From positions 5,518,001 through 5,582,000 of the forward strand of contig NZ_JAMLFW010000001.1 in assembly GCF_024256385.1 (NCBI RefSeq): DNA of 64,000 bases, written 5' to 3'. The translations under genes were made by a program, and so were the position numbers. The notes beneath the pieces were generated by a model that saw only the letters and a program-made list of their open reading frames with translations, did no database searches and was not told the DNA's origin. This stretch comes from Anatilimnocola floriformis (GTDB lineage Bacteria; Planctomycetota; Planctomycetia; Pirellulales; Pirellulaceae). Shown here piece after piece: positions 4,214 through 32,192 of this stretch (positions are counted from its first letter, which is position 1; every line of letters starts with the position of its first letter).

Positions 4214-6043
4214 ATGAATCTCACTCCCGAAGAACGTGCAGTTGGTCAGGATAACTATCACGCCGCGATGGACGCTTACGACCGCAGCCCAGCGGCCGAG
4301 CCGTTCAATCGGCGCGACTTCCTCAAGGGCGTGGTCGGCGCAGGGATTGTCTCCGGTGCAGGCCTCGGCGCGACCTATTTCTGGAAGCAGAAAGAAAAGC
4401 TCGCCAGCCCCGTTCGCATCGCCGTGATCGGCGCTGGCGACGAAGGCCAGGTGCTAATCAACGCTTGCAATCCGGAATATGTCGACGTCATTCAGATCTG
4501 CGACATCCGGCCGTACAACGTCCATCGCGCCTTCCACGGCGACTGGGCTGGCGACGTGGCGCTAGCCAATCGTCAAGGCTTGATCAAGCGGTTTGGCTTT
4601 GCGGATGAAGCGGCAGCCAAGGAACACATCAAGGTTACGGAAGACTACAAGGAAGTCCTGAAGAACCCCGAAGTCGAAGCGATCATCATCGCCCTGCCGC
4701 TGCACTTGCATGCGATCGTCGCCATCGAAGCCATGCAAGCCGGCAAGCACGTGCTCACCGAAAAGCTGATGGCCCACAACGTGGCCCAGTGCAAACTGAT
4801 GGGCCGCGTGGCCGAAAAGACCGGCAAGATCCTTTGCGTCGGCCATCAACGCCACTACAGCGTGCTCTATGACAACGCGGTGAACCTGCTCCGCTGGGGC
4901 GTCCTCGGCGAATTGCATCACATTCGCGCTCAATGGCACCGCGGCAACTTGCCTGGAAACGACAGCTGGCAACAGCCCCTGCCCTGGGAAGTCGATGCGG
5001 TCACTAAGGACGGCAAGGAGACGAAGATCAACTTCGTGCTCAAGAAGCTGAAGGAACTCGAAGCCGAATTGGGGAGCAACCCATCCGACGGTTCGAAGGT
5101 TGCCAAGCAAGTGGCTCAGTGGAAGGCCTGGCTGCTCGACGCCGAAGTCGACGCCAAGAAGTACGGCTATCAGGATTTCCACATTGGCAAGGGCAAGCTC
5201 CGTGAAGCTCGCGAAGAGCTGGCCCGTTGGCGGTTGTTTGCACGCACGGGCGGCGGCTTGATGGCCGAGCTCGGCAGCCATCAGCTCGATGCCTCGACCA
5301 TCTTCTGCACCGCCCTCCGCAAGGACGGCAAGAAGGCCCACCCGCTGAGCGTCCACGCAGTCGGTGGCCGGCATACCTTCCCGCTTGATCGCGATGCCGA
5401 AGATCACGTCTATTGCATGTATGAGTTCCCGGGCCCGGGTTACGAAGCGGGCTTCGACGTGGGCTATTACGATCCGGCCATGAGCTATCCGAAGGGTGGC
5501 ATCCCGGCCTACGACGCCGTGCAAAACCCTGAGAAGAAGATCGTCGTCACTTACTCGTCGATCAACGGCAACGGCTGGGGCGGCTACGGCGAAACCGTGA
5601 TGGGAACGAAGGGAACGCTGCTGCTCGAACGCGAGCAAGAAGTGCTGCTGTTCAAGAACAGCGACACCTCGACCAAGATCGGCGTGAAGGACGACAAGGG
5701 TGGCCCGACGCTCGACACGCAAGCCAGCGGCAAGGGGCCAAGTCTCGCTAAGGCCGCAGCCACTTCGGGGCCTGTCAGCCGCGGTTACACCGAAGAAATC
5801 GAGCACTTCGCCTGGTGCATCCGCAATCCTGCTCCGGAAAATCAGCCCCGCTGTAATCCGAAGGTCGCCCTCGGCGACGCCGTGATCGCGCTCGCCACCA
5901 ACGTCGCCATCGACAACGCCAACAAGGGCAAGGGCGGCTACCTGGCGTTCAGCGAAGATTGGTACGACATCCACAACGACGCCACGCCCGACGGCAGCAA
6001 CATCAAGGAAGAAGCGGGCAAGATGGGCGCCGAAATGGCGTGA
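4214..6043 (+). CDS. Tat-exported Gfo/Idh/MocA family oxidoreductase
   Basis: The product has 609 residues. The twin-arginine motif RRDFLKG (R33, R34) precedes a hydrophobic stretch, so it is probably exported folded with its cofactor. The NAD(P)-binding fold follows, with VIGAGDEG at 71-78, and the family motif appears as TEKLM (E183, K184). The substrate domain carries AELGSHQLD, where His is the usual catalytic-site residue. A charged helical insert of about 100 residues lies between the two halves (KKLKELEAELG and on), which makes the protein longer than the usual 350-450. Such planctomycete proteins are thought to oxidise or reduce sugars or cyclitols, but the substrate cannot be read from sequence. 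It starts three bases after the DoxX-like gene. Confidence 0.88.
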   Translation: MNLTPEERAVGQDNYHAAMDAYDRSPAAEPFNRRDFLKGVVGAGIVSGAGLGATYFWKQKEKLASPVRIAVIGAGDEGQVLINACNPEYVDVIQICDIRPYNVHRAFHGDWAGDVALANRQGLIKRFGFADEAAAKEHIKVTEDYKEVLKNPEVEAIIIALPLHLHAIVAIEAMQAGKHVLTEKLMAHNVAQCKLMGRVAEKTGKILCVGHQRHYSVLYDNAVNLLRWGVLGELHHIRAQWHRGNLPGNDSWQQPLPWEVDAVTKDGKETKINFVLKKLKELEAELGSNPSDGSKVAKQVAQWKAWLLDAEVDAKKYGYQDFHIGKGKLREAREELARWRLFARTGGGLMAELGSHQLDASTIFCTALRKDGKKAHPLSVHAVGGRHTFPLDRDAEDHVYCMYEFPGPGYEAGFDVGYYDPAMSYPKGGIPAYDAVQNPEKKIVVTYSSINGNGWGGYGETVMGTKGTLLLEREQEVLLFKNSDTSTKIGVKDDKGGPTLDTQASGKGPSLAKAAATSGPVSRGYTEEIEHFAWCIRNPAPENQPRCNPKVALGDAVIALATNVAIDNANKGKGGYLAFSEDWYDIHNDATPDGSNIKEEAGKMGAEMA

Positions 6044-6050
6044 GGGGAAA

Positions 6051-6106
6051 TGCAGAAGTGAGAACGCAGAATGCAGAAGTGAATTCCGAATTCAGAAGGC
6101 AAGAAG
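6051..6106. repeat. Heptamer repeat array upstream of the macro-domain gene
   Basis: CAGAAGT, GAGAACG, CAGAATG and CAGAAGT run consecutively from 6053, then degenerate units with the same seven-base step (GAATTCC, GAATTCA). An inverted partner lies at 6783-6810, on the far side of the macro-domain gene. Confidence 0.75.
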
Positions 6107-6263
6107 AGGAATTCGCTTTTGCGAATGTTTTGCTCCCTCGCCCCGGTACTCCGGGGAGAGGGTTGGGGTGAGGGCTGAAGCGGAGCGAAACTCACCATCT
6201 TCGAGCGACTCCGAAACTGGTGGCGTCGCCTCGCCGGTTGTTGCTCAAGACGTTCGTCGCGAT

Positions 6264-6797
6264 ATGATCAAATGGCAAGTCATCCACGGCGATCTGCTTG
6301 ATATCTCCGCCGATGGCTTGATCTGTTCCGCCAACCCCAACTTGAATCTCTCCGGCGGCGTTGGCGGCGCGTTCTCCATGCGTTACGGCGGCGAGATGCA
6401 AGAGTTCTTGCACGCGCATCTGCGGGAACAAAAGCTGCGCGTCGTTCCGCCGGGAACCGTCGTTATTTCGCCCGGCTTCAGTTCGCCTTTTCCTCACGTC
6501 GCCCACGCAGTCGCCATTGATGTCTTCTATGACACGAATGCCGAATTGATTCTGCAAACCTATTTCACTGCGATTCAGCAGCTGGCCGCGGCTGGCTGTC
6601 GTTCCATCGCCGCCGCTTGTCTCGGCTGCGGCTATGGCCGATGCCCCGAAGCGGAATTTCTAAAATCCATCGAGCGCTTGATCGCCACACTGATTGCCAC
6701 GCCGCTGGAAAATGTCGACCATATCACTCTTGCTACCACGAACGAAGCGCTCGCCGATTCGCTGCGGCAACTTCCCGCCTTTCATTCTGCATTCTGA
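6264..6797 (+). CDS. Macro domain (ADP-ribose-binding) protein
   Basis: The product has 177 residues and is a single domain. The N-terminus matches the macro fold: a strand and loop HGDLLDISADGLICSANPNL, where ANPN replaces the usual AAN, then GGVGGAFSMRYG for the glycine-rich phosphate-binding loop, and GCGYG near residue 120 for the second loop. Macro domains bind ADP-ribose or remove it from proteins, nucleic acids or O-acetyl-ADP-ribose. I started at ATG 6264 because upstream residues look non-coding. No ADP-ribosyltransferase or DarT-like toxin is adjacent, so the partner is unknown. The last codons overlap a heptamer repeat, and the stop TGA lies inside it. Confidence 0.72.
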   Translation: MIKWQVIHGDLLDISADGLICSANPNLNLSGGVGGAFSMRYGGEMQEFLHAHLREQKLRVVPPGTVVISPGFSSPFPHVAHAVAIDVFYDTNAELILQTYFTAIQQLAAAGCRSIAAACLGCGYGRCPEAEFLKSIERLIATLIATPLENVDHITLATTNEALADSLRQLPAFHSAF

Positions 6798-6817
6798 CTT
6801 CTTCATTCTGCCTTTCC
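6783..6817. repeat. Heptamer repeat array overlapping the macro gene stop
   Basis: CATTCTG, CATTCTG, ACTTCTT, CATTCTG lie at 6783-6810. These are the reverse complement of the CAGAATG units at 6053-6080, so the two arrays bracket the macro-domain gene in inverted orientation. The array covers the last five codons and the stop. Confidence 0.75.
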
Positions 6818-6827
6818 GGAATCTCCC

Positions 6828-7811
6828 ATGCCCCGCGCTCTCATCACTCCCGCCGTTTACGCGAACGGCCAAGGTCCTTGGCGTGAAGTTCTCGATGCGG
6901 CGGGCGTGGAGGTGGTGATTCCTCCGGTCGATTGCACGACGCTGACCGAAGCCGAGTTCATCGCGCAACTGCAGGGAATCGATTTCACGCTGGCCAGCAT
7001 GGAGCGCTACACCGAGAACGTGTTCGCCGGTAGCAAACTGCGCGCGGTCGCTCGCGTGGGAGTCGGCTACGACGCCGTGGATGTGGCCGCAGCGACCAGG
7101 CATGGCGCCGCGGTTTGCATTACTCCCGGAACGAATGAGCACTCGGTCGCCGAGCAGGCCATCGCGCTCATCACTGCCGTCTTTCGCGACACCTGTCGGC
7201 GCGATCGCGAAATCCGCGGCGGCAAGTGGCGTCGCGATTGCCCGCGGCGTCTGGCGGGCAACACCATCGGTCTGGTCGGCCTCGGTCGCATCGGCCGGGC
7301 GATGACTCCGCGCTGCCAGGGGCTCGGCTTGAAGGTAATCGCCTACGATCCCTACGCCGATGCTGCCTTCGCGGCCCAGCGCGGCATCGAGCTCGTGTCG
7401 TTTCACGAACTGCTCGCCCAAGCCGACATCGTCAGCCTGCACATGCCTTGCACGCCCGAGACGACCGACATCATCAATGCCAAAACGCTCGCCCTGATGA
7501 AGCCCAACAGCACACTGATCAACACGTCGCGCGGCGGCCTCGTCGATGAAGATGCGCTTTGCGATGCGCTCGCCAGCGGCCATTTGTTTGGCGCGGGTCT
7601 CGACGTTTGCAAGACCGAACCGCTCCCAGCCCTGAGCCGGCTGCGGCAGTTCGACAATCTCGTCTTTGCGCCGCATCTCGGCGGCATCGATCAAGACGCC
7701 CTCGATGCCATGGGCCGCCTCGCCGCGCAGTGTCTCGTTGATCTCTCGCAGAACCGTTGGCCGACGGGCTGCGTCGTGAATGAAACGCTGCGGGCCGGCT
7801 GGTCTTGGTAA
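6828..7811 (+). CDS. D-2-hydroxyacid dehydrogenase (SerA-like)
   Basis: The product has 327 residues, the normal length for a short-form D-isomer-specific 2-hydroxyacid dehydrogenase. The NAD motif is GLGRIG at 151-156. The catalytic triad can be placed at R235 (NTSRGG), E264 (DVCKTEP) and H283 (APHLGG). The family includes phosphoglycerate, glyoxylate and lactate dehydrogenases; there is no ACT regulatory domain, so a classical feedback-controlled SerA is unlikely. The gene follows the macro gene by 30 bases with a heptamer array in between, and converges with truB, the two stops being about 17 bases apart. Confidence 0.88.
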   Translation: MPRALITPAVYANGQGPWREVLDAAGVEVVIPPVDCTTLTEAEFIAQLQGIDFTLASMERYTENVFAGSKLRAVARVGVGYDAVDVAAATRHGAAVCITPGTNEHSVAEQAIALITAVFRDTCRRDREIRGGKWRRDCPRRLAGNTIGLVGLGRIGRAMTPRCQGLGLKVIAYDPYADAAFAAQRGIELVSFHELLAQADIVSLHMPCTPETTDIINAKTLALMKPNSTLINTSRGGLVDEDALCDALASGHLFGAGLDVCKTEPLPALSRLRQFDNLVFAPHLGGIDQDALDAMGRLAAQCLVDLSQNRWPTGCVVNETLRAGWSW

Positions 7812-7827
7812 AACACACGTCGGGCGT

Positions 7828-8793
7828 TTACGACTCATCCGCAGTGGGAGGACCGCCCGCACCCACCAGCACTTTCACCTTCCAGCGATCTCCGCGGCTG
7901 GGGGTGAGCACGGCAAACAGCCTGCCGTCCGGCGCGATTCCGGCGACCTCGGCGTCGCTGGCAAATTGGGTGGCCTCCAGCGGTAGATCAAACAGCACAC
8001 CCGTCGCAGTAAGTTCTGCGACCTGTTGTTCACTCAGCGGCGTGCGCTGCATCGCTCCCACGGCCAGCAGCGACGGCAGCAGATGTTCCAGCAGATTGTC
8101 CTTGTTGATTTGCTCGGGCGCAACGGCCTGCGAAAGCAGAAACGGCCCGATGACGGTGCGCGAGAGTACCGACATGGCTGCTTCGCTGCCGACCGCGCGG
8201 GCCAGATCGCGCCCCAGCGACCGAATGTACGTGCCGCTGCTGCATTCGATTTCGGCTTGCAGCTCCGGATATTCGTAGCGTGTGATTTCCAGCCGATGAA
8301 CATCCACCGGCCGAGCATTCAACTCCACCTTCTTCCCTTTGCGGGCCAGTTTATAAGCTCGCTTGCCGGCAACTTTCAACGCGGAAAAAGCCGGCGGTTG
8401 CTGCTGAATGGTTCCCAAAAACATCGGAACTGCCGCATCGAGTTCCGCGCGCGACGGAGCTCGCGCGTCCGTCAGCATCGTGACGTTGCCCGTGATGTCT
8501 TCGGTATCGCTCGACCGCCCCAGCAGAAATGACGCCCGGTACGTTTTCGGAAAACGATGTAGATAGTCGATCAGTTTCGTTCCGCGACCCACGCCCACTA
8601 CCAGCACGCCCGTCGCCATGGGATCGAGCGTTCCCGCATGACCGACGGCAAGTGGTTTGAGCGCGTGTTCGAGTTGCGTCACGACATGCCGCGAAGAAAC
8701 ACCGGCTGGCTTGGCGATATTCAGCAGGCCGTGGGTACGGGACGAGTTCTGAGTTCTGAGTTCTGAGTTCTGAGACAAGAGTTGGTCGTTCAT
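7828..8793 (-). CDS. truB: tRNA pseudouridine(55) synthase TruB
   Basis: The product has 321 residues. It makes the universal pseudouridine 55 in the T-loop of tRNA. The core motif GHAGTLDPMATGVL contains the catalytic aspartate (D57); HGLLNIAKPAGVSS before it is the normal start region of the family, and FSALKVAGKRAYKLAR and GTYIRSLGRDLA are later family blocks. The ATG at 8793 has AAGGAGA at ideal distance. This start puts about 19 extra residues (including SQNSELRTQNS) before the family's usual N-terminus, and they are encoded by four CTCAGAA heptamers. The MATE gene lies upstream on the same strand, ending 40 bases before. Confidence 0.93.
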   Translation of the reverse strand: MNDQLLSQNSELRTQNSSRTHGLLNIAKPAGVSSRHVVTQLEHALKPLAVGHAGTLDPMATGVLVVGVGRGTKLIDYLHRFPKTYRASFLLGRSSDTEDITGNVTMLTDARAPSRAELDAAVPMFLGTIQQQPPAFSALKVAGKRAYKLARKGKKVELNARPVDVHRLEITRYEYPELQAEIECSSGTYIRSLGRDLARAVGSEAAMSVLSRTVIGPFLLSQAVAPEQINKDNLLEHLLPSLLAVGAMQRTPLSEQQVAELTATGVLFDLPLEATQFASDAEVAGIAPDGRLFAVLTPSRGDRWKVKVLVGAGGPPTADES

Positions 8794-8833: not shown

Positions 8834-10231
8834 CTACTTCCCCACCAACTCCGGCTCGATCACTCGCATCTTCCGCCAGCCGCCGTGCAGGAAGCGCAGC
8901 AGATAAACGACCGCCATCGCAAAGATCCAAGCCGTCATCACGTACCACCAACCCATCACGCCGAAGTGTAGGTACATTTCCGCGACGCGGCCGCCGACGA
9001 TGAACACCGCCGTGAGGGCCACCGCAGCATACAGCACAAACCGTGTGTCGCCCGCGCCCTTCAGGGCGCTGACGAACGTCATTTGCGTAGCATCGAATAA
9101 GCAGTAGACGGCCACGAACCGCAGCAGCACGATGGTCAGGTCGCGGACCTTGCCGAATTCGCTGGCGCTCGCCCCTCGCTCGTGAAAATAGATGAACCAA
9201 TCGGGAACGAACCAATATGCCGCGGCAAACAGCGCGCTAAATCCGAGCGCGAACTGCAACCCGGTCCACGTCGAGCGCGCAGCCAGCTCTTCTTTGTTTT
9301 CACCCAAATATTGCCCAACGAGAGTCGACACACCGATCCCCAAACCGATCACCGGCACGAAGGCGACCGCATTGACATTGAAGGCCAGCGAAGTCGCCGC
9401 CCCTTCGACATCGCCGATTCCTGTGATGAACCGCGTCAGCAGGGCAAATCCAAACGACTCGATCAGCATCGGCAAGCCGCTCGGCAAACCGAACCACAAC
9501 AGTCGCGACATTAGCGGCCAGTCGAACCGCAACGAGTCGGCCAGGCCGTACTCTTTCCATTCCACGCGGCGCAGCATGAGCACTGCGAACACGATCACAT
9601 TGAACCAATGGCCAATGCCGGTCGAAATTCCCGCGCCGATGATTCCCCACGCAGGAAAGCCAAACTTGCCGAAGACCATCGCGTAATCGAGAAATAAATC
9701 AACCGAGCTGCCGGCGATATTCACGGCCATCACCAGGCCGGTCTTGCCTCGACCGGTGTAGAACGCGCTGAGCGCGTTGCTGATGACCATCGCCGGCGCA
9801 CCAAAGAGCAGCGATTGAAAATAAAGCGTCTGAAATTTCACCTGCACCGGATTCTGCGACGCTCCCGCGAAGATGTACGGCGACAACGGTACGAGGAGCG
9901 CAAATAGCGGCAGACAAAGAATGGCAAACCACACGCCTTGCCCGACGACGTGGCCGATCCGCCGCTGCTGCCCAGCGCCGTAATACTGCGCGACGAACGT
10001 ATTCACATACGAAGCCACCCCCGACGGCAAACAAACGATCGTCCAGTGCAGCATGCCCGCTGGCATCGACGCAGCCATGGCCTGGTTGTCGTACCACGTG
10101 AGGAACAACCGATCGAAGAACCAACTGATCGCCCAAAAGCTGGTGGAAATGATCAGCGGCAGCGAGAGCGCGAGCACCTCGCGCCCGCCGGCTGGGCGAT
10201 TCCACCAGTTGAATCCGTTCTGCTTGCTCAT
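8834..10231 (-). CDS. MATE family multidrug/metabolite efflux transporter
   Basis: The product has 465 residues with about twelve hydrophobic segments. The N-terminal part (VLALSLPLIISTSFWAISWFFDRLFLTWY) and the repeat in the second half (FGLPSGLPMLIESFGFALLTRFI) fit the two six-helix halves of MATE exporters, which exchange Na+ or H+ for drugs or metabolites across the inner membrane. The substrate is unknown. It is followed on the same strand by truB with only a heptamer repeat between. The protein begins MSKQNGFNWWNRPAGG. Confidence 0.87.
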   Translation of the reverse strand: MSKQNGFNWWNRPAGGREVLALSLPLIISTSFWAISWFFDRLFLTWYDNQAMAASMPAGMLHWTIVCLPSGVASYVNTFVAQYYGAGQQRRIGHVVGQGVWFAILCLPLFALLVPLSPYIFAGASQNPVQVKFQTLYFQSLLFGAPAMVISNALSAFYTGRGKTGLVMAVNIAGSSVDLFLDYAMVFGKFGFPAWGIIGAGISTGIGHWFNVIVFAVLMLRRVEWKEYGLADSLRFDWPLMSRLLWFGLPSGLPMLIESFGFALLTRFITGIGDVEGAATSLAFNVNAVAFVPVIGLGIGVSTLVGQYLGENKEELAARSTWTGLQFALGFSALFAAAYWFVPDWFIYFHERGASASEFGKVRDLTIVLLRFVAVYCLFDATQMTFVSALKGAGDTRFVLYAAVALTAVFIVGGRVAEMYLHFGVMGWWYVMTAWIFAMAVVYLLRFLHGGWRKMRVIEPELVGK

Positions 10232-23627: not shown

Positions 23628-24056
23628 ATGATCGCCATTCGTGGAAAAGCGCTCGGAAGAAAAAAGCCGTTGTTTGCCGACTTCTCGATCCCTCTGCCGC
23701 CCGACTTGGGCGATGGCGGGGCACTCACGTTGCGGAGTCTCATCGAGCGGATCGTTCGGCAGGAAGTGATCGCCTTCCGGCAGCGACAAACCGACCGGCA
23801 ACTCCTCAAAGCACTCTCGGCAGCACAGATCGAAGCCGGCACGGCGGCGGGCAAGATTACGTCCGGCGAAAGCGAAGTCGCGCCGCAAGAGGTCGACGAA
23901 GACCAGGCGATCGGCACCGCATTGCAAGCCTTTGAGGACGGCATTTATCTGGTTGCCATCGATGGCAACGAGCAGCGAAAGCTCGAAGACCAGATTTTTC
24001 TCCGCGACGATTCGACCGTCACGTTCATCCGCCTGACGCTCTTGGCCGGCGGTTGA
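23628..24056 (+). CDS. Beta-grasp/ubiquitin-like protein ending in Gly-Gly (putative)
   Basis: The product has 142 residues from ATG 23628 (AAGGCAG upstream); the longer frame to 23037 is antisense to the PSCyt1 gene and was rejected. The N-terminus is strand-like (MIAIRGKALGRKKPLFADFS), then a helix (LRSLIERIVRQEVIAFRQR). The C-terminus reads YLVAIDGNEQRKLEDQIFL, then DDSTVTFIRLTLLAGG. That order resembles the end of MoaD, ThiS and ubiquitin-like proteins: strand, short helix, strand, then a terminal Gly-Gly. A helical insert of about 55 residues sits in the middle. A giant HEAT-like/DUF4132-type protein starts 60 bases downstream. The fold is inferred by eye, and conjugation is not shown. 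No E1, JAB protease or molybdopterin gene is nearby. Confidence 0.72.
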   Translation: MIAIRGKALGRKKPLFADFSIPLPPDLGDGGALTLRSLIERIVRQEVIAFRQRQTDRQLLKALSAAQIEAGTAAGKITSGESEVAPQEVDEDQAIGTALQAFEDGIYLVAIDGNEQRKLEDQIFLRDDSTVTFIRLTLLAGG

Positions 24057-24116
24057 TTTCGATTTTGCTCCGTGGTTTCCATCCTGTCACTTCCTCTCTA
24101 CCCCTGCGCAAACATC

Positions 24117-27100
24117 ATGCTCAAGCCCGAAGCCGCTCAGAATCAACTCGAAAAGTGGAAAATCGAAGATGGCCATGCCAAGGTCATCGCCGCCATGAAG
24201 AAGGAGCCTGCCAAGATCCGCAGCATCGGCATGGCGATTCTTCAACAAGATGAAAAGGGTAAGCCCTACGAAATGAATCGTTGGGCCGAAAAGAGCCGCA
24301 TCCAGAGGGAACAGAAGGAGGCCCTCGAGAACCTGAGCAAAGGGGATCGAGCGAAGCTGTTCAAGACGCTGTATGGCGCGCTCGGGCCAGCCGTGGAATT
24401 GACCTTTGAGCATCTAAAGACCACGCCCTATCAATCGCACGACTCTGGTACGCGGCGGTCCTTTCGCGCGCCGAGTAACCCAGCCGCTTCGCGCGACATG
24501 CGGTTCAGCTGGTTGCAAGATTTGATTCACACAACGACCGATTATCAGCCGCAGATTCAAACACCCGAGTGGTATGCGGCCTGGACGCCGCATCATTCGA
24601 GCTATGGCGGCGGCGAGATCGGCCGACTGCTGGCCGCGGTCATCGATGGCGGCGGCAAAACGGGCCAGGCCGTGTACGACATTTTGTATCAATCGGCGAC
24701 CAACGAACACGAAATCGGCATCATGGGCCGGCACGTGACCCACGGTCTGCTCGGAGCCGCCCGCGAGGATGGCTGGCAGCTGATGGAGAAATTGTTGCTC
24801 GCAGCGCAGCGACAAGAAGGCTTGCGGCAGGTCGTGCTCGAAGCGGTCGACGAAGCTCATCCCACGGCGTTCCGGCGGATGCTGCGGATCATCGTCGATC
24901 AAAAGCTGGCGCGATTTTCCGCCGTCGCCCGCGCGGTCGATGTCTGGTTCGGTCTGCAGTGGGACCCGGCGAGTGTGACGACGATCAACAACACCTGCGA
25001 GATCGCGCTGCAATTACTCGACAGCAAAAAGGCCCGCGACGAAGCCCTGCAATCGAAGTCGGCCGAGCAAGTCTTCTATGGGCTGTGGGCCATGGCCTTT
25101 GACGATGTTACTCCTTCGATCAAAGCCGCAGAAAAAATTGCCCAGCATCGAGAAGCGGGGCATCGTCTGGTGGCTGCTTATCATCTGAAGCAGGCGAGCA
25201 TTGACGAAGCTCAGCCGCAACTGCTCAAGCTGCTCGATGACCCGGAACTGCAGGTGGCGCTGCAAGCACTCCAGGGAATCGGGCGCCGCGATGAATTTGG
25301 CGACGAAGAACCGACCGGCAATTCGAAAACGGCCGCTGTCACGTTCGCCGCGCTCGAGCGACTCTTCCAACGTTTGCCGACCAAGTCGATCAAGCTCAAG
25401 GCTCTCGTCTTTCCCTGGACGGCTCGCGAGACCGATCGGAGCGAAGTCGCGGCCAGCATGATCAACTGCCTGGCCGATTTGCCTCCTTCCAAGTTGCTCC
25501 CTTACTTGCAGGAGTTCGATGCTCAGACTCGCTGGCGAGCTTGTCGCTTTTTATCCGAACAAGACAAGTGGGACAACGAAACGCGCGAGAGCCTGGTCGG
25601 GTTGATCGGCGATTCGTCGAAAGACGTTCGCTGCTCTGCGATCGAAGCCTTTGCGAAAAAGCCGCTCACGCCGGCCGAAGCGGAGCGGGTCGAAGGATTT
25701 CTCAGTCGCAGCGCCAGCGATTTGCGCCAAGGGGCGGTGCGATTGCTGCTCTCGCAAAAAGATGCGCCCGCCCTCGCCAGTTCGCGGCGGCTCGCGAGTT
25801 CGAAGAACGCCAGTCAACGACTCTCCGGCTTGGAACTCCTCAAGGAGCTCGCCGAGGCCGATCGCGGGCGCAAGGAGTGCCTCGTCATTGCTCGCGAGTT
25901 TCAAACGAGCCAGAAGAAGCTCAGCAAGGACGAAGAAACTCAGCTGAAGGTGATTCTCGCCTCGGGCGAAGAAAAAGTAACGCTCGACAACGGCTTGGGG
26001 TTGTTCAACCCCGCCGAGCGCTCGCCTCGCAAACAGCCTCAAAAGCACAAGGTTGCCGCCGTCACCACTGCCGCGATGAAGCTGCTGGCGAGTCTCGACG
26101 AGCTCGTTCACAAGCATCGCGCCGAACCGATTCAGACCAAGAATTGGCGAGACGAGGTGAACGAAGAGCCGCTGGGCGGCATTCGTTATGGCTTTCCCAC
26201 GCCCACGTGGGATAAGTCGGCAAAAGACCAATTGGAAAAACTCCCGCTCAAACAGATCTGGCTCGACTGGGAAAAGAACCGGCCGGCTGCACTCCGCGAC
26301 GACGACGGCGGTGAACTCTTTCGGGCGCGGTACACGTTGAAAATGCGCGACGGCTGGCGCTGGGATGACAGCAAGGAATGGTTGAAGAAACGGAAAGAAC
26401 TGCAACAGTTCGTCGTCGGCAGCGCGGCCTTTCCCAAGATCAAGTACGAAAGCGTCGTCGACGATTTGCTCGATTGGTTTGTCCGTCTGCAAGCCGAAAC
26501 TTCGCAAGGGGCCAAGAACCTCACGCTGAGTCAGGATCTGTGCGAAACCTTCTTTGCCCTGATTCCGCCGAATGACCACAAGTTCCTCGTAGAACTGAGA
26601 AAGAAGCGCGGTGGTCGTGATCACGACTACGACGACGATGAGGCCGACTGGCGTGAAGCAGATCTGCACGACGAATGGCTCGATAGTCCGACACGTCTGC
26701 TCTTGCCGGCGGGGCGCGACCGAGAATTGCCCGCAGCTCCACGCGCTCGACAATGGCAACTGCTGCATTGGCTCGACGAGCCAGTCGAAGGCGCCGCGCG
26801 CAAACGCCCAGGACTGACGGAGCTCCTCGCGGCTTATTCGGCCGGTACTGCCAACCTGGCCGATCTGATGGATCAACTGATTGGTCCCGACAACAGCCGG
26901 TTTGATTGCCTGGAATCGATGACCGCGCCGCGACCCAGCGCAGAGCTGGCGAAGTTTTTCAAAGCACATCCGGAAGTGACCGAGGGCATGGATCGTATTC
27001 GGGCTCGCGTGCTCGACATCGAGCTGGCCCGCGGCGATTTGCCCACGCCTGCCACCGAGCCAGCGGCGTCGTTGGGTTCACTCTACGGCGTGGCCACTCT

Positions 27101-29222
27101 AGTGCGAATCCTGACCACGCTGGGTAAGGAACGTTTCAAGCAGGAACGCTACTCGTGGCGGAGCAGCGGCGGAAAAGCCGAGAGCCTGACTTCGCTCGTC
27201 AAGGCTTGCTATCCCACCGCAGCCGATACGAGTGAAGTCTTCAATCGCCTACTGAAAGCAGCCATCAAAGAGGGAGCTTTCGGCGAAGAGAAAGTCTTGC
27301 AACTGGCGTTTCTCGCGCCGCAGTGGACACAACTCGTGAAGGACTACTACGGCTGGGAGGGGCTCGACGAGGGCTTGTACTGGTTCCTCGCGCATATGCG
27401 GTTCGTATCGGGTGGCGAGGAAGCGGCCCTCGCGGCGGGCGTGGAAGACGACACGGCCGAGGAAAGTGAATCGTCGGACGACGACGATGGCGATGATTCG
27501 CCGAGCGGAGAAGCCAAGCCCCGCAAGCTATCGGCGTGGGAGCGCTTGGTTCTCGAGCGCACGCCGCTCAGCGACGAGGATCGCAACAACGGCGTTGTTG
27601 ATGTCGCCTGGTTTCATCGCACTTTTGAACAGCTGGGCCGCAAAAAGTGGGAAGCGATTGCCGAGGCTTCGCGATTCGCGGCTTCTTCGGCGCAGTCGAA
27701 GCGGGCGCAGTTCATCGCCGACGTGCTCCTTGGCAATGTCAAGAAAACAGAACTGATTACCTCGATTCGCGACCGCAAGTTGAAAGAACAAGTGCGCTTG
27801 CTCGGCTTGTTGCCGCTGGCGGATGGCGCCAAGCGTGATGCTGATCTGCAAGATCGCTATCAAGTGCTGCAGGAGTACAAAAAGTATGCGAAGGGGCTGA
27901 GTTCGCTCTCGCGCCCCGATGCGGAACTCGCCGCGCAGATCGGCCTGCAGAATCTCGCGCAGCTCGCAGGCTTTCCCGATCCGCTGAGACTCGAATGGGC
28001 CATGGAAGCCGAAGCGACGCAGGACTTGCTGAAGGGGCCGATCGTGCTGTCGAAGAAGGGGCTGACGATGACCCTGTCGCTCGACGACCGCGCGCAGCCG
28101 CAAGTCAGCATCGAGAAGGAAGGCAAGGTCATGAAGTCCCTGCCGAAGACGCACAAGGACGATAAGGACTTTGCCGCGCTCGCCGATCGCAACAAGGAAC
28201 TCAAACGGCAGGCTTCGCGCGTGCGTGGTTCGCTCGAAGCGGCCATGCTCCGCGGCGACGAGTTCACGGGCACCGAGCTAGGCCAGATCGCGCGTCACGC
28301 GTTGCTCAAACCGATGCTCGAACGCCTCGTGCTGATCGGCGAAGGGATCATGGGCTATGCCGACAAGCAGGGGAAAGCGCTCCGCAGTCACGATGGTTCG
28401 CTCGAACCCGTGAAGAAGAACGAAAAGTTCCGCGTCGCGCACACGCACGATCTGCTGGCCTCGAAGGAGTGGGACCAATGGCAGAAGGAGTGTTTTCAAG
28501 CCGAACGGCTGCAACCCTTCAAGCAGATATTTCGTGAGTTGTATGTCGTCACCAGTCCGGAGAAGTCAGATAAGACGAAGTCGCAGCGATACGCCGGTCA
28601 GCAGGTGAATCCCAAGCAAGCCTACGCGCTGTGGGGTTCGCGCGGCTGGAAGGTCGACGAAGGCGTGTTCAAAGTTTTCCATGGCGAAGAGATAACCGCG
28701 ATGGTCAACTTCAACTACGGTGTGACCACGCCCTTGGAAGTGGAAGGGCTGACGCTCGACACCGTGCAGTTCTTCGGCAAGGGATACAAGCCGCTCGAAC
28801 TGACGAAAGTGCCGCCACGGATCTTCAGCGAAGTGATGCGTGACATCGACCTGGTGGTGAGCGTTGCCCATCGTGGCGGCGTCGATCCCGAAGCCTCGGC
28901 TTCGACGGTGGAGATGCGGACCGCGCTCTTGAACGAAACGTGCGAGTTGCTTGGCATCAAGAACGTGAAGCTCAACAAGTCGCATGCGGTCATCAAGGGT
29001 CACTTGAGCGACTACACCGTTCACTTGGGAAGCGCGGTGGTGCATCGCATGCCGGGCGGCTCGGTTTGCCTGGTTCCCGTGCATGCTCAGCACCGCGGCC
29101 GACTGTTTCTGCCCTTCGCCGATGATGATCCGAAGACTGCCGAAGTGATCAGCAAGACGCTGCTCCTCGCCAAGGACAAAGAGATTCTCGATCCGGCGAT
29201 CCTGGAGCAACTGCGGGCGTAA
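24117..29222 (+). CDS. Giant HEAT-like repeat protein with DUF4132/DUF5724-type domain
   Basis: The product has 1,701 residues from ATG 24117 (a GTG at 24072 is possible; neither has a good ribosome-binding site). There is no signal peptide or membrane helix. The first ~620 residues are helical HEAT-like repeats (AAVTFAALERLFQRLPTKS, DVRCSAIEAFAKKPLTPAEA). An acidic, unstructured patch lies near 1120-1145 (DDDDGDDSPSGE). The last ~600 residues carry DUF4132-like blocks (KSLPKTHKDDKDFAALADR, LYVVTSPEKSD, RYAGQQVNPKQAYALWGSRGW) ending with a domain rich in RxFSEVMRDIDLVVSVAH. E. coli MolR/YehI also has DUF4132, and its role is poorly known. It follows a Gly-Gly-ending beta-grasp-like gene and probably works with it. 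Confidence 0.85.
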   Translation: MLKPEAAQNQLEKWKIEDGHAKVIAAMKKEPAKIRSIGMAILQQDEKGKPYEMNRWAEKSRIQREQKEALENLSKGDRAKLFKTLYGALGPAVELTFEHLKTTPYQSHDSGTRRSFRAPSNPAASRDMRFSWLQDLIHTTTDYQPQIQTPEWYAAWTPHHSSYGGGEIGRLLAAVIDGGGKTGQAVYDILYQSATNEHEIGIMGRHVTHGLLGAAREDGWQLMEKLLLAAQRQEGLRQVVLEAVDEAHPTAFRRMLRIIVDQKLARFSAVARAVDVWFGLQWDPASVTTINNTCEIALQLLDSKKARDEALQSKSAEQVFYGLWAMAFDDVTPSIKAAEKIAQHREAGHRLVAAYHLKQASIDEAQPQLLKLLDDPELQVALQALQGIGRRDEFGDEEPTGNSKTAAVTFAALERLFQRLPTKSIKLKALVFPWTARETDRSEVAASMINCLADLPPSKLLPYLQEFDAQTRWRACRFLSEQDKWDNETRESLVGLIGDSSKDVRCSAIEAFAKKPLTPAEAERVEGFLSRSASDLRQGAVRLLLSQKDAPALASSRRLASSKNASQRLSGLELLKELAEADRGRKECLVIAREFQTSQKKLSKDEETQLKVILASGEEKVTLDNGLGLFNPAERSPRKQPQKHKVAAVTTAAMKLLASLDELVHKHRAEPIQTKNWRDEVNEEPLGGIRYGFPTPTWDKSAKDQLEKLPLKQIWLDWEKNRPAALRDDDGGELFRARYTLKMRDGWRWDDSKEWLKKRKELQQFVVGSAAFPKIKYESVVDDLLDWFVRLQAETSQGAKNLTLSQDLCETFFALIPPNDHKFLVELRKKRGGRDHDYDDDEADWREADLHDEWLDSPTRLLLPAGRDRELPAAPRARQWQLLHWLDEPVEGAARKRPGLTELLAAYSAGTANLADLMDQLIGPDNSRFDCLESMTAPRPSAELAKFFKAHPEVTEGMDRIRARVLDIELARGDLPTPATEPAASLGSLYGVATLVRILTTLGKERFKQERYSWRSSGGKAESLTSLVKACYPTAADTSEVFNRLLKAAIKEGAFGEEKVLQLAFLAPQWTQLVKDYYGWEGLDEGLYWFLAHMRFVSGGEEAALAAGVEDDTAEESESSDDDDGDDSPSGEAKPRKLSAWERLVLERTPLSDEDRNNGVVDVAWFHRTFEQLGRKKWEAIAEASRFAASSAQSKRAQFIADVLLGNVKKTELITSIRDRKLKEQVRLLGLLPLADGAKRDADLQDRYQVLQEYKKYAKGLSSLSRPDAELAAQIGLQNLAQLAGFPDPLRLEWAMEAEATQDLLKGPIVLSKKGLTMTLSLDDRAQPQVSIEKEGKVMKSLPKTHKDDKDFAALADRNKELKRQASRVRGSLEAAMLRGDEFTGTELGQIARHALLKPMLERLVLIGEGIMGYADKQGKALRSHDGSLEPVKKNEKFRVAHTHDLLASKEWDQWQKECFQAERLQPFKQIFRELYVVTSPEKSDKTKSQRYAGQQVNPKQAYALWGSRGWKVDEGVFKVFHGEEITAMVNFNYGVTTPLEVEGLTLDTVQFFGKGYKPLELTKVPPRIFSEVMRDIDLVVSVAHRGGVDPEASASTVEMRTALLNETCELLGIKNVKLNKSHAVIKGHLSDYTVHLGSAVVHRMPGGSVCLVPVHAQHRGRLFLPFADDDPKTAEVISKTLLLAKDKEILDPAILEQLRA

Positions 29223-30928: not shown

Positions 30929-31094
30929 GAGGTTTCTCGCGGGCGTGCGGCGACCTGAACTACAATCAAGCTCTACTTAAAAATAGTGGCTGTTCGCCGC
31001 TGCCAGCAATGCTAGCATCGATTATCTGGCAAGACAATTTCGTGGCGGGCGTTGCGTTGTGCGGGCTGTAGGGAAATCGCAGGCTAGGAATCGG

Positions 31095-32192
31095 ATGTCT
31101 GAATACTTCGACCGGATTGGCGACGAATGGCGGCAGCGGGCCGCAGACCTGGCCGATTGGTCGATGTTGCACCTGGTGAATCGCACCGACGTCTGGGGCC
31201 GCTACCTATCGAAAAAGCAGCGGAAGACGGAGTTCGGCCTGGCGAACACTGCCATCACGGCGCCGTTTCGCGAAGAGCGGGGCAAGGTTTTTCTCAACGC
31301 TGAGTCGCTGAAGAAGCACTTCAAAACACGCGACGTCGGCGGCGTGCTCGGCTTGCATAGCATGAGCGCAGATCTGACTTCGCGCTGGCTGGCGATCGAC
31401 ATCGACTTGCACGACGAAGACGACCTGTCGGCGAGCCCGCAGCAAAATTTCGTCGCCGCGCGAGGTTGGCACAAGCAACTCGTCGAGTTGGGCTGCGATC
31501 CGTTGCTGTTCGATAGCAACGGCAAGGGCGGCTTTCATCTGTTGACGATTTTTGCCGAGCCGCTGGAAACAAAGAGCGTCAATCGCTTCGGCAAACAGCT
31601 GGTCGCTGATTTTGAACTTCGCGGCCTCGATCAGGAGCCCGAGATTTTCCCCAACACCCCGACGTGGGATCATTACGGCGGTTGGCTGCGCTTGGTTGGC
31701 CGGCACCACACGCGAGAGCACTATACGCGGGTCTTCAACGATGAACCGTGGGCCGAGGGGGATAATCTTTGGCTCGAAGGGCACGATGCCATCGACCGAA
31801 TTCTCCGCACGCAACCACTTGCTGCCGAAGCGGCCGAGAAGATCGGCTTGGTGCGGGCACGACGAACGGTTTGTCTCGATTTCGACGGCGTGATTCACTC
31901 GTATCGCTCGGGTTGGTGTGGCGCCGAGATCATTCCCGATCCGCCGATTCACGGCACACGCGAATCGATCGCTCAGCTGCGCAAGCGGTTTCGCGTGGTG
32001 GTGCATTCGGCCCGTTGTGCAACCGACGCCGGCGTGGCTGCGGTTACGGCTTGGCTGGTGAAGCATAAGATCGAGGTCGACGAAGTCTGCCGCTTCAAGC
32101 CGCCGGCTGCCGTTTATGTTGACGATCGCGCCGTGCCGTTTCGCGGCGACTGGCAAGCGGCGATTGCCGAGATTCATGAGTTCCGTAAATGA
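31095..32192 (+). CDS. Primase-like (AEP/TOTE type) domain fused to HAD domain
   Basis: The product has 365 residues from ATG 31095 (AGGAA upstream). Residues ~1-230 resemble the archaeo-eukaryotic primase fold of the TOTE type: catalytic D102-x-D104 in WLAIDIDLHD, then SNGKGGFHLL with S141 and H148 (SxH motif), and GGWLRLVGRHH for the third motif. Residues ~255-365 are a HAD phosphohydrolase domain: D262/D264 in CLDFDGVIHS, S304 in VVVHSAR, and YVDDRAVPF for the last acidic motif. A primase or polymerase joined to a nucleotidase or phosphatase could act in repair, in nucleotide clean-up or in defence. The fusion is seen in sequence; the function is inferred. Its stop overlaps the next start (ATGA). 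Confidence 0.72.
   Translation: MSEYFDRIGDEWRQRAADLADWSMLHLVNRTDVWGRYLSKKQRKTEFGLANTAITAPFREERGKVFLNAESLKKHFKTRDVGGVLGLHSMSADLTSRWLAIDIDLHDEDDLSASPQQNFVAARGWHKQLVELGCDPLLFDSNGKGGFHLLTIFAEPLETKSVNRFGKQLVADFELRGLDQEPEIFPNTPTWDHYGGWLRLVGRHHTREHYTRVFNDEPWAEGDNLWLEGHDAIDRILRTQPLAAEAAEKIGLVRARRTVCLDFDGVIHSYRSGWCGAEIIPDPPIHGTRESIAQLRKRFRVVVHSARCATDAGVAAVTAWLVKHKIEVDEVCRFKPPAAVYVDDRAVPFRGDWQAAIAEIHEFRK

Follow-up and report, generated by a model that had tools for sequence, protein, structure and literature searches.

What could a small protein with a free C-terminal Gly-Gly be doing beside a giant protein of the DUF4132 type? The question is raised by a gene pair on contig C1 (NZ_JAMLFW010000001.1) of the 8.9 Mb genome of Anatilimnocola floriformis (genome G000), lying in a stretch of 64,000 nucleotides that was analysed as a whole and is called the window here. 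The answer preferred below, with a probability of about 0.5, is that the two genes form one machine, in which a Gly-Gly carrier activated by an E1 enzyme would pass through, or dock at, a cysteine in the DUF7737 domain of the giant protein. The features of the pair are the following, with the evidence in brackets.

23628-24056, plus strand: small protein of 142 amino acids (aa) with C-terminal Gly-Gly, predicted to be a MoaD/Urm1-like beta-grasp protein (open reading frame (ORF) translation, AlphaFold2 (AF2) model, Foldseek)
24048-24053, plus strand: terminal Gly-Gly codons GGC GGT, followed by the stop codon TGA (sequence)
24117-29222, plus strand: giant partner of 1,701 aa, DUF5724-DUF4132-DUF7737 (ORF translation, Pfam)
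24243-27404, plus strand: best stretch of DUF5724, aa 43-1096, with a HEAT_2 match inside (Pfam)
28122-28649, plus strand: DUF4132 domain, aa 1336-1511 (Pfam)
28908-29213, plus strand: DUF7737 domain, aa 1598-1699, which co-occurs with the small gene (Pfam, genome survey)
29067-29069, plus strand: Cys codon TGC, aa 1651, which covaries with the Gly-Gly tail (partner alignments)

An earlier sequence-only reading of this DNA had described a 142-residue product ending in Gly-Gly and, 60 bases later, a 1,701-residue HEAT-like/DUF4132-type protein, and the ORF check reproduced its coordinates, lengths and spacing exactly. The tail of the small protein is VTFIRLTLLAGG (...RLTLLAGG), with the stop codon directly after GG, and the large ORF starts 60 bases past the small-ORF stop on the same strand. 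Pfam matches of the large protein to DUF5724 (2e-190), DUF4132 (3.9e-40), DUF7737 (1.7e-34) and HEAT_2 (8.2e-07) bear out the proposed type. With a DUF4132 score of 138.1 bits against a cut-off of 27, the protein is a member of the DUF4132 family; as no WGR match was found in the Pfam scan, it is not placed in the MolR (WGR-DUF4132) subfamily. The small protein has no match at the Pfam or NCBIfam cut-offs and none in PADLOC at E <= 1, and an assignment to DUF3509 (E 0.0035, 17.6 bits, cut-off 25) was rejected, since this match appears in 1 of 74 family members.

Relatives of the small protein are spread over many phyla. They were found in 6 of 117 near genomes by a single-sequence search, the own genome counted, and in 20 of the 392 genomes of the phylum by a five-sequence profile search; in the phyla of G501 (Chryseosolibacter, locus L102), G513 (L123) and G508 (L087) they occur in 11 of 395, 3 of 329 and 6 of 319 genomes, respectively. 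A scan of one genome per species, made with a tail-derived pattern that favours GG, found 264 relatives, of which 80 were retained. Its taxa, by record titles, are Planctomycetota, cyanobacteria, actinobacteria, Bacteroidota, Acidobacteria, Nitrospirae, Calditrichia, Anaerolineae, Omnitrophota, SAR324 and alphaproteobacteria; for some of them the phylum is presumed by the authors and not taken from the titles. Plasmid records add four Deinococcus, Bacteroides finegoldii, Novosphingobium humi and Nonomuraea gerenzanensis. The final set comprises 129 deduplicated loci (10 duplicates were removed first and then L260, identical to L090), in which 128 small ORFs are uncut and that of L089 ends at a contig edge; gaps, gene order and partner lengths were surveyed in a sample with six duplicate loci still in. 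Two family types are separable by alignment. In type a, which includes the window, Deinococcus, B. finegoldii and others, the partner measures about 1,620-1,730 aa, and DUF5724 is present in the three partners scanned (window, D. radiodurans, B. finegoldii). In type b the partner mostly measures 800-1,130 aa, and the one scanned, that of L065, consists of DUF4132 and DUF7737 only. A genome of the same genus (G001) holds a fragment (L004, 1501-1644) that matches residues 19-65 of the small protein with 66% identity and lacks the remainder; it looks like a decayed copy of the small gene.

The keeping of the terminal Gly-Gly, which the sequence-only reading had named as a check, is confirmed in 115 of the 128 complete deduplicated relatives, and most of the 13 without it have a changed partner too. 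Among 832 control ORFs of 150 aa or more, drawn from 100 of the loci, 7 end in GG. The non-GG ends are AGSYW (4), AGA (2), SGAYW (2) and, once each, DSHHN, LSG, SGRLW, AGSIW and TGTYW. As the tail pattern biased the scan, fairer rates are those of the phylum profile search, run without this filter (18 of 21 in GG), and of the 32 among the 80 scan hits that hold another pattern (31 of 31 uncut, the remaining one being cut by its contig). The GG proteins share the C-terminal 12-residue consensus V-T/S-F-L-K/R-L-x-P-L-V-G-G. Over 116 rows, including one duplicate, their last two glycines are encoded by GGC (71), GGG (56), GGA (55) and GGT (50); since every Gly codon is represented, selection acts at the protein level. 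A lone relative in G059 (L009, 6114-6557) is non-GG and no DUF4132 neighbour was seen within 6 kb, which fits the expectation that the tail is freed once the partner is lost.

Linkage to DUF4132/DUF5724 proteins, which the earlier reading had put forward, proved to be a general trait. When ORFs are delimited from stop to stop, 120 of 128 loci have a DUF4132-family ORF on the strand of the small gene and no more than 1,200 bases away; those without one are L009, L012, L053, L059, L090, L093 (where just 181 bases of contig remain), L115 and L212. Intergenic gaps are frequently between -11 and +9, and the gene order is flipped in a few loci (L050, L069, L084). By non-overlapping ORFs, the partner recurs in 80 of 100 deduplicated neighbourhoods, in which no other gene cluster is present in more than 10 (smaller clusters are not named). 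Of the 392 genomes of the phylum, 24 carry DUF7737, 23 of them above the cut-off, 20 carry the small gene and 19 carry both, a co-occurrence with a Fisher value of 8.5e-27, kinship not corrected. The sole genome with the small gene only is G174. The five with DUF7737 only are G151, whose contig starts at the gene, G403, with a 57-aa remnant, G181, below the cut-off, and G327 and G432, which have divergent DUF7737 proteins with no small neighbour found. The two other DUF4132 genes of the window genome have neither DUF7737 nor a small neighbour, and DUF7737 was found in none of 14 control genomes, E. coli included. In two loci, two DUF4132-family genes stand beside a single small gene, in tandem in L073 (10424-15580) and divergent in L113 (7369-12846). 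A rhomboid-family protease gene lies immediately upstream of the B. finegoldii pair (L138, 7233-8987).

The tail of the small protein also covaries with a single residue of DUF7737. This cysteine (C791 of the L065 partner, aa 1651 of the window protein) is invariant in the 59 partners of alignment A6, and in the final count all 103 partners of GG proteins have it, while all 11 partners of non-GG proteins lack it, bearing Ser (6), Phe (3), Ala (1) or Asn (1); no pair falls in either mixed class (Fisher 1.6e-15, kinship not corrected). Left out of this count were L103 and L110, whose C-terminus is unaligned, L234, which failed the alignment filter, L089 at its contig end, and 11 small ORFs with no DUF7737 ORF within 2,000 bases. 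L234, with the tail SGAYW, had Asn at the site in an earlier alignment; the five GG rows without Cys in another, earlier pass were L068, L079 and L099, which were misaligned there and have Cys in A6, and again L103 and L110. A column control was made with 97 GG and 10 non-GG rows, L050 and L234 being too short. The GG rows have 35 columns with an invariance of 98% or more; every non-GG row keeps 29 of these, 3 others persist in most of them, and 3 are lost. Two of the lost columns, W711 and Y723, have gaps in 9 GG rows too, so that the Cys is the only lost residue found in every GG row long enough to cover it. In the substituted pairs, blunted tails (GA, SG) go with Phe and longer aromatic GxYW tails with Ser, Ala or Asn. 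A tree of 27 rows implies three tail changes, two of them forced by well-supported branches: one in a Bacteroidota-type clade (L138, L213, L233-L239), where tails read G-[STAR]-[YIL]-W and the partner site is Ser, Ala or Asn, one in L042 and L044 (GA, Phe), beside L048 (GG, Cys), and one in L050. Taken together, this covariation suggests that the Gly-Gly tail and the DUF7737 cysteine work together. From the same pattern a prediction follows for G151, whose DUF7737 protein has Val at the site and whose small gene is off the contig: its small protein should not end in GG.

The fold expected of the small protein is that of a carrier. An AF2 model of the window protein, built with 73 relatives, has a predicted local distance difference test (pLDDT) value of 84.3 and a predicted template modelling (pTM) score of 0.73; it places strands at residues 2-8, 19-21 and 32-34, helices at 35-71 and 91-103, strands at 107-111, 114-116, 122-124 and 130-135, and then a free tail. 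The earlier reading had seen a strand-turn-strand order in residues 111-130, and the model does have strands there. In a Foldseek search of the PDB, the first rank is a MoaD chain (1fm0_D, probability 0.96, E 0.043), and ranks 1-13 comprise ten MoaD, Urm1, SAMP1, ThiS or CysO-type chains and three tyrosyl-tRNA synthetases, some of the carrier names being presumed from the PDB entry codes. As no match reached E <= 0.001, the assignment of the fold depends on the agreement within the match list, the strand order and the tail; on this basis the small protein appears to be a beta-grasp of the MoaD/Urm1 type that carries a helical insert, so that the proposed beta-grasp is upheld by a list in which carriers dominate the top ranks with weak E-values. 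Sequence profiles contribute less: the window protein has no ThiS match, 5 of 74 members show ThiS below the profile cut-off (best E 0.066), and family profiles gave weak matches of no evident meaning against PDB chain sequences. For the relative DR_A0165 of Deinococcus radiodurans, the available text of PMC9650054 reports structural matches to MOCS2, SAMP1 and other entries tied there to MPT synthase. The type b partner of L065 (843 aa; pLDDT 89.1, pTM 0.82) is modelled as helical until about residue 370, with an alpha/beta region beyond; its whole chain gave no PDB match at E <= 0.001, and the best 50 of 769 Foldseek matches are mostly helical-repeat proteins. Family-wide, it is thus supported that none of the three outcomes named beforehand as counter-evidence (a core other than beta-grasp, loss of Gly-Gly, lack of linkage) holds.

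Physiological data come from D. radiodurans, whose pair, flanked by trxC and a DUF99 gene, carries the annotations 'hypothetical protein' and 'DUF4132 domain-containing protein' and is equated here with DRA0165-DRA0166 by the operator and by the neighbours given in the accessible part of PMC9650054. DR_A0165 (SEP068184) is 38-40% identical to the window protein and has a Gly-Gly tail, and DR_A0166 shares the DUF5724-DUF4132-DUF7737 order of the window partner. In the portion of PMC8533742 at hand, DRA0165 appears among the DdrO targets, its operator lying at -83, and DRA0166-V5 rises with mitomycin C in the wild type, not in an irrE mutant. The published 20-mer RDRM operator is present exactly at L137:8913-8932, upstream of the gene start at 8995; L139 and L140 contain its 15-base core, and L141 an altered form of it. 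The statements in the consulted sections of PMC9650054 that DR_A0165 is Deinococcus-only and RDRM-less are in conflict with the multi-phylum family and with the operator found. A LexA-type box (GAAC-N4-GTTC) was found upstream of the pair in 0 of 15 actinobacterial loci, and therefore motif-based control by DNA damage is shown for Deinococcus only. According to the same sections of PMC9650054, the protein is raised by irradiation and H2O2, the deletion mutant survives H2O2 better, Trx1 is bound in pull-downs, with the proposal of a thioredoxin 1 inhibitor, and 157 co-immunoprecipitated proteins are common to N- and C-tagged DRA0165. The words 'kDa' and 'ubiquitin' are nowhere in the main text of that paper, and no discussion of the Gly-Gly, of the general tie to DUF4132 or of the Cys was found in its accessible part.

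From these elements the proposed machine can be outlined. The small protein would be a MoaD/ThiS/Urm1-type beta-grasp carrier bearing a helical insertion, as model and structure search indicate, and its free C-terminal Gly-Gly would be kept because it acts at the DUF7737 cysteine. A MoeB/ThiF-type E1, usually encoded elsewhere and in one locus as a third gene, would adenylate the terminal Gly; the activated C-terminus may then be handed to the cysteine as a thioester or acyl-disulfide, and the giant protein, a putative helical-repeat scaffold with an alpha/beta region, would pass the carrier, or its acyl or sulfur load, to a target. In Deinococcus, by published data and the operator found again here, DNA damage switches the pair on. 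A compact ubiquitin-like transfer is a tentative possibility, in which the giant protein would replace E2/E3, with the MoaD-like modifier loaded on the cysteine of DUF7737, which would then be a catalytic domain unmatched in the whole-chain structure search, and targets recruited by the helical repeats under DNA-damage or oxidative stress.

Several results weigh against this machine. The covalent chemistry between tail and cysteine is itself inferred, and the covariation amounts to 2-3 independent events, with an independent-pairs test at p 0.5 from too few pairs. The pairing of Phe with GA or SG and of Ser, Ala or Asn with GxYW is also compatible with steric packing. The two divergent DUF7737 proteins without a small neighbour have Ala and Cys at the site by a weak alignment, the latter (G432) being a mild exception to the covariation. 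The 157 contacts, being shared by N- and C-tagged DRA0165 in the available text of PMC9650054, need no free Gly-Gly. A search for E1 genes by phmmer and a three-sequence profile in the 129 loci (2.1 Mb) found one in a single locus, with this small profile, and phmmer with two queries for JAB and a single one for E2 found neither gene in 123 loci, a search of limited sensitivity in which many loci were truncated.

The single E1, a point in favour of the machine, belongs to a Bacteroidota locus (L240), as third gene of a minus-strand run with 2-base gaps (small gene 7938-8327, partner 5368-7935, E1 4664-5365); NCBIfam groups it with MoeB/ThiF, the best match being to a MoeB model (E 2.5e-56), below the cut-off of each listed family. 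For one case this adjacency could be due to chance, yet the spacing resembles that of an operon. Within L240 4664-11305, the run is adjoined by a YhcG/DUF1016 nuclease and a phage-type integrase. In the window genome, where the earlier reading had suggested looking for E1-like genes, five ThiF-family places exceed the cut-off, all away from the pair. That genome also holds a separate ubiquitin-like island on the minus strand (L186, 4979-10409; C1 about 234,978-240,408), with a YukD-like ubiquitin-like protein of 103 aa ending in VAG, two UQ_con E2-like proteins, a ThiF E1 and two JAB proteins.

The main rival, which is judged unlikely, is that the small protein is a non-covalent structural subunit whose tail docks in a Cys-lined pocket of DUF7737, tail and pocket covarying in shape with neither activation nor transfer. 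It agrees with the size exchange seen in the substitutions (Phe with GA and SG; Ser, Ala or Asn with G-x-[YIL]-W), with the E1 gene in only 1 of 129 loci, and with the altered-tail pairs, which remain intact and tandem and hence still do something; the Bacteroidota-type branch would have lost the chemistry or kept docking alone. Against docking, a strict, unextended Gly-Gly-COOH in 115 of 128 proteins, together with Cys in each of the 103 scored partners of GG proteins, exceeds usual packing demands, and the E1 of one locus and the MoaD-like fold speak against it too. Less probable again is a sulfur carrier acting in the manner of ThiS, MoaD, CysO and Urm1, its Gly-Gly being converted to a thiocarboxylate and the cysteine forming an acyl-disulfide or taking the sulfur for a cofactor, tRNA or metabolite. 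In its favour, the closest folds are sulfur carriers, the L240 E1 has its highest scores with MoeB and ThiF models, redox phenotypes are associated with the Deinococcus relative in the consulted part of PMC9650054, and the D. radiodurans pair has modA (downstream) and thiD annotated no more than 9 kb away; neither gene is annotated in the other three Deinococcus loci, however, and the neighbourhoods show no frequent cluster apart from the partner. Very improbable, finally, is that the family consists of thioredoxin 1 inhibitors of the type published for DRA0165, unrelated to Gly-Gly chemistry: the pull-down with Trx1 and the deletion phenotype in H2O2, as given in that same part of PMC9650054, are in its favour, whereas only one of the four Deinococcus loci has an annotated trxC adjoining the pair, and members of the family stand beside DUF4132 proteins in many phyla.

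Two roles were rejected. Anti-phage defence was dismissed on the null PADLOC result and because two small-protein queries were unmatched among 50,697 phage records; the integrase beside L240 tempers this rejection for single copies. A link to molybdenum, suggested by the name MolR, was judged by neighbourhood clusters only and dismissed, modA being unannotated in 3 of 4 Deinococcus loci.

The pair can be set beside several known systems. Like MolR/YehI-type proteins, the window partner has a DUF4132 domain, which E. coli also matches, presumably in MolR/YehI itself; unlike them, it has the Cys-bearing DUF7737 absent from the control genomes. The small protein resembles MoaD, ThiS, Urm1, SAMP1 and CysO in its predicted fold, C-terminal Gly-Gly and top structure matches, and differs from them by its helical insertion before strand 3 and by having a DUF4132 protein, and not MoaE, ThiG or an E1, as its fixed partner. 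MolR carries WGR, as described in the available part of PMC8533742. With the Bil/Bub (Ubl-E2-JAB-E1) operons the pair shares a ubiquitin-like protein and, as some bacterial ubiquitination-like operons are under DNA-damage control in the portion of PMC13373217 at hand, this trait as well; it differs from them in the E2, JAB and E1 counts given above.

Gly-Gly carriers are a known kind. The open-licence literature searched yielded no account of the pairing as a trait of the family, of the DUF7737 cysteine or of how widely the family is spread, nor any mention of DUF5724 or DUF7737, and DUF4132 is barely described there; the words MolR, WGR and HEAT repeat are absent from the beta-grasp papers PMC1779556 and PMC1949818. 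DUF4132 proteins, present in many phyla here, are almost undescribed; the link of one of their branches to a ubiquitin-like Gly-Gly protein, with a probable meeting residue named, offers a first testable mechanism. The 'Deinococcus-only' small protein of D. radiodurans is recast as a member of a broad family, in an organism that allows direct tests under radiation and oxidative stress. Should the cysteine carry the Gly-Gly protein, the pair would represent a ubiquitin-like pathway with no E2 or JAB genes nearby.

Elsewhere in the window, an ORF at 31059-32192 has a match to the TOTE-conflict archaeo-eukaryotic primase (28.3 bits, cut-off 27), and its C-terminal part, judged by eye, may be HAD-like.

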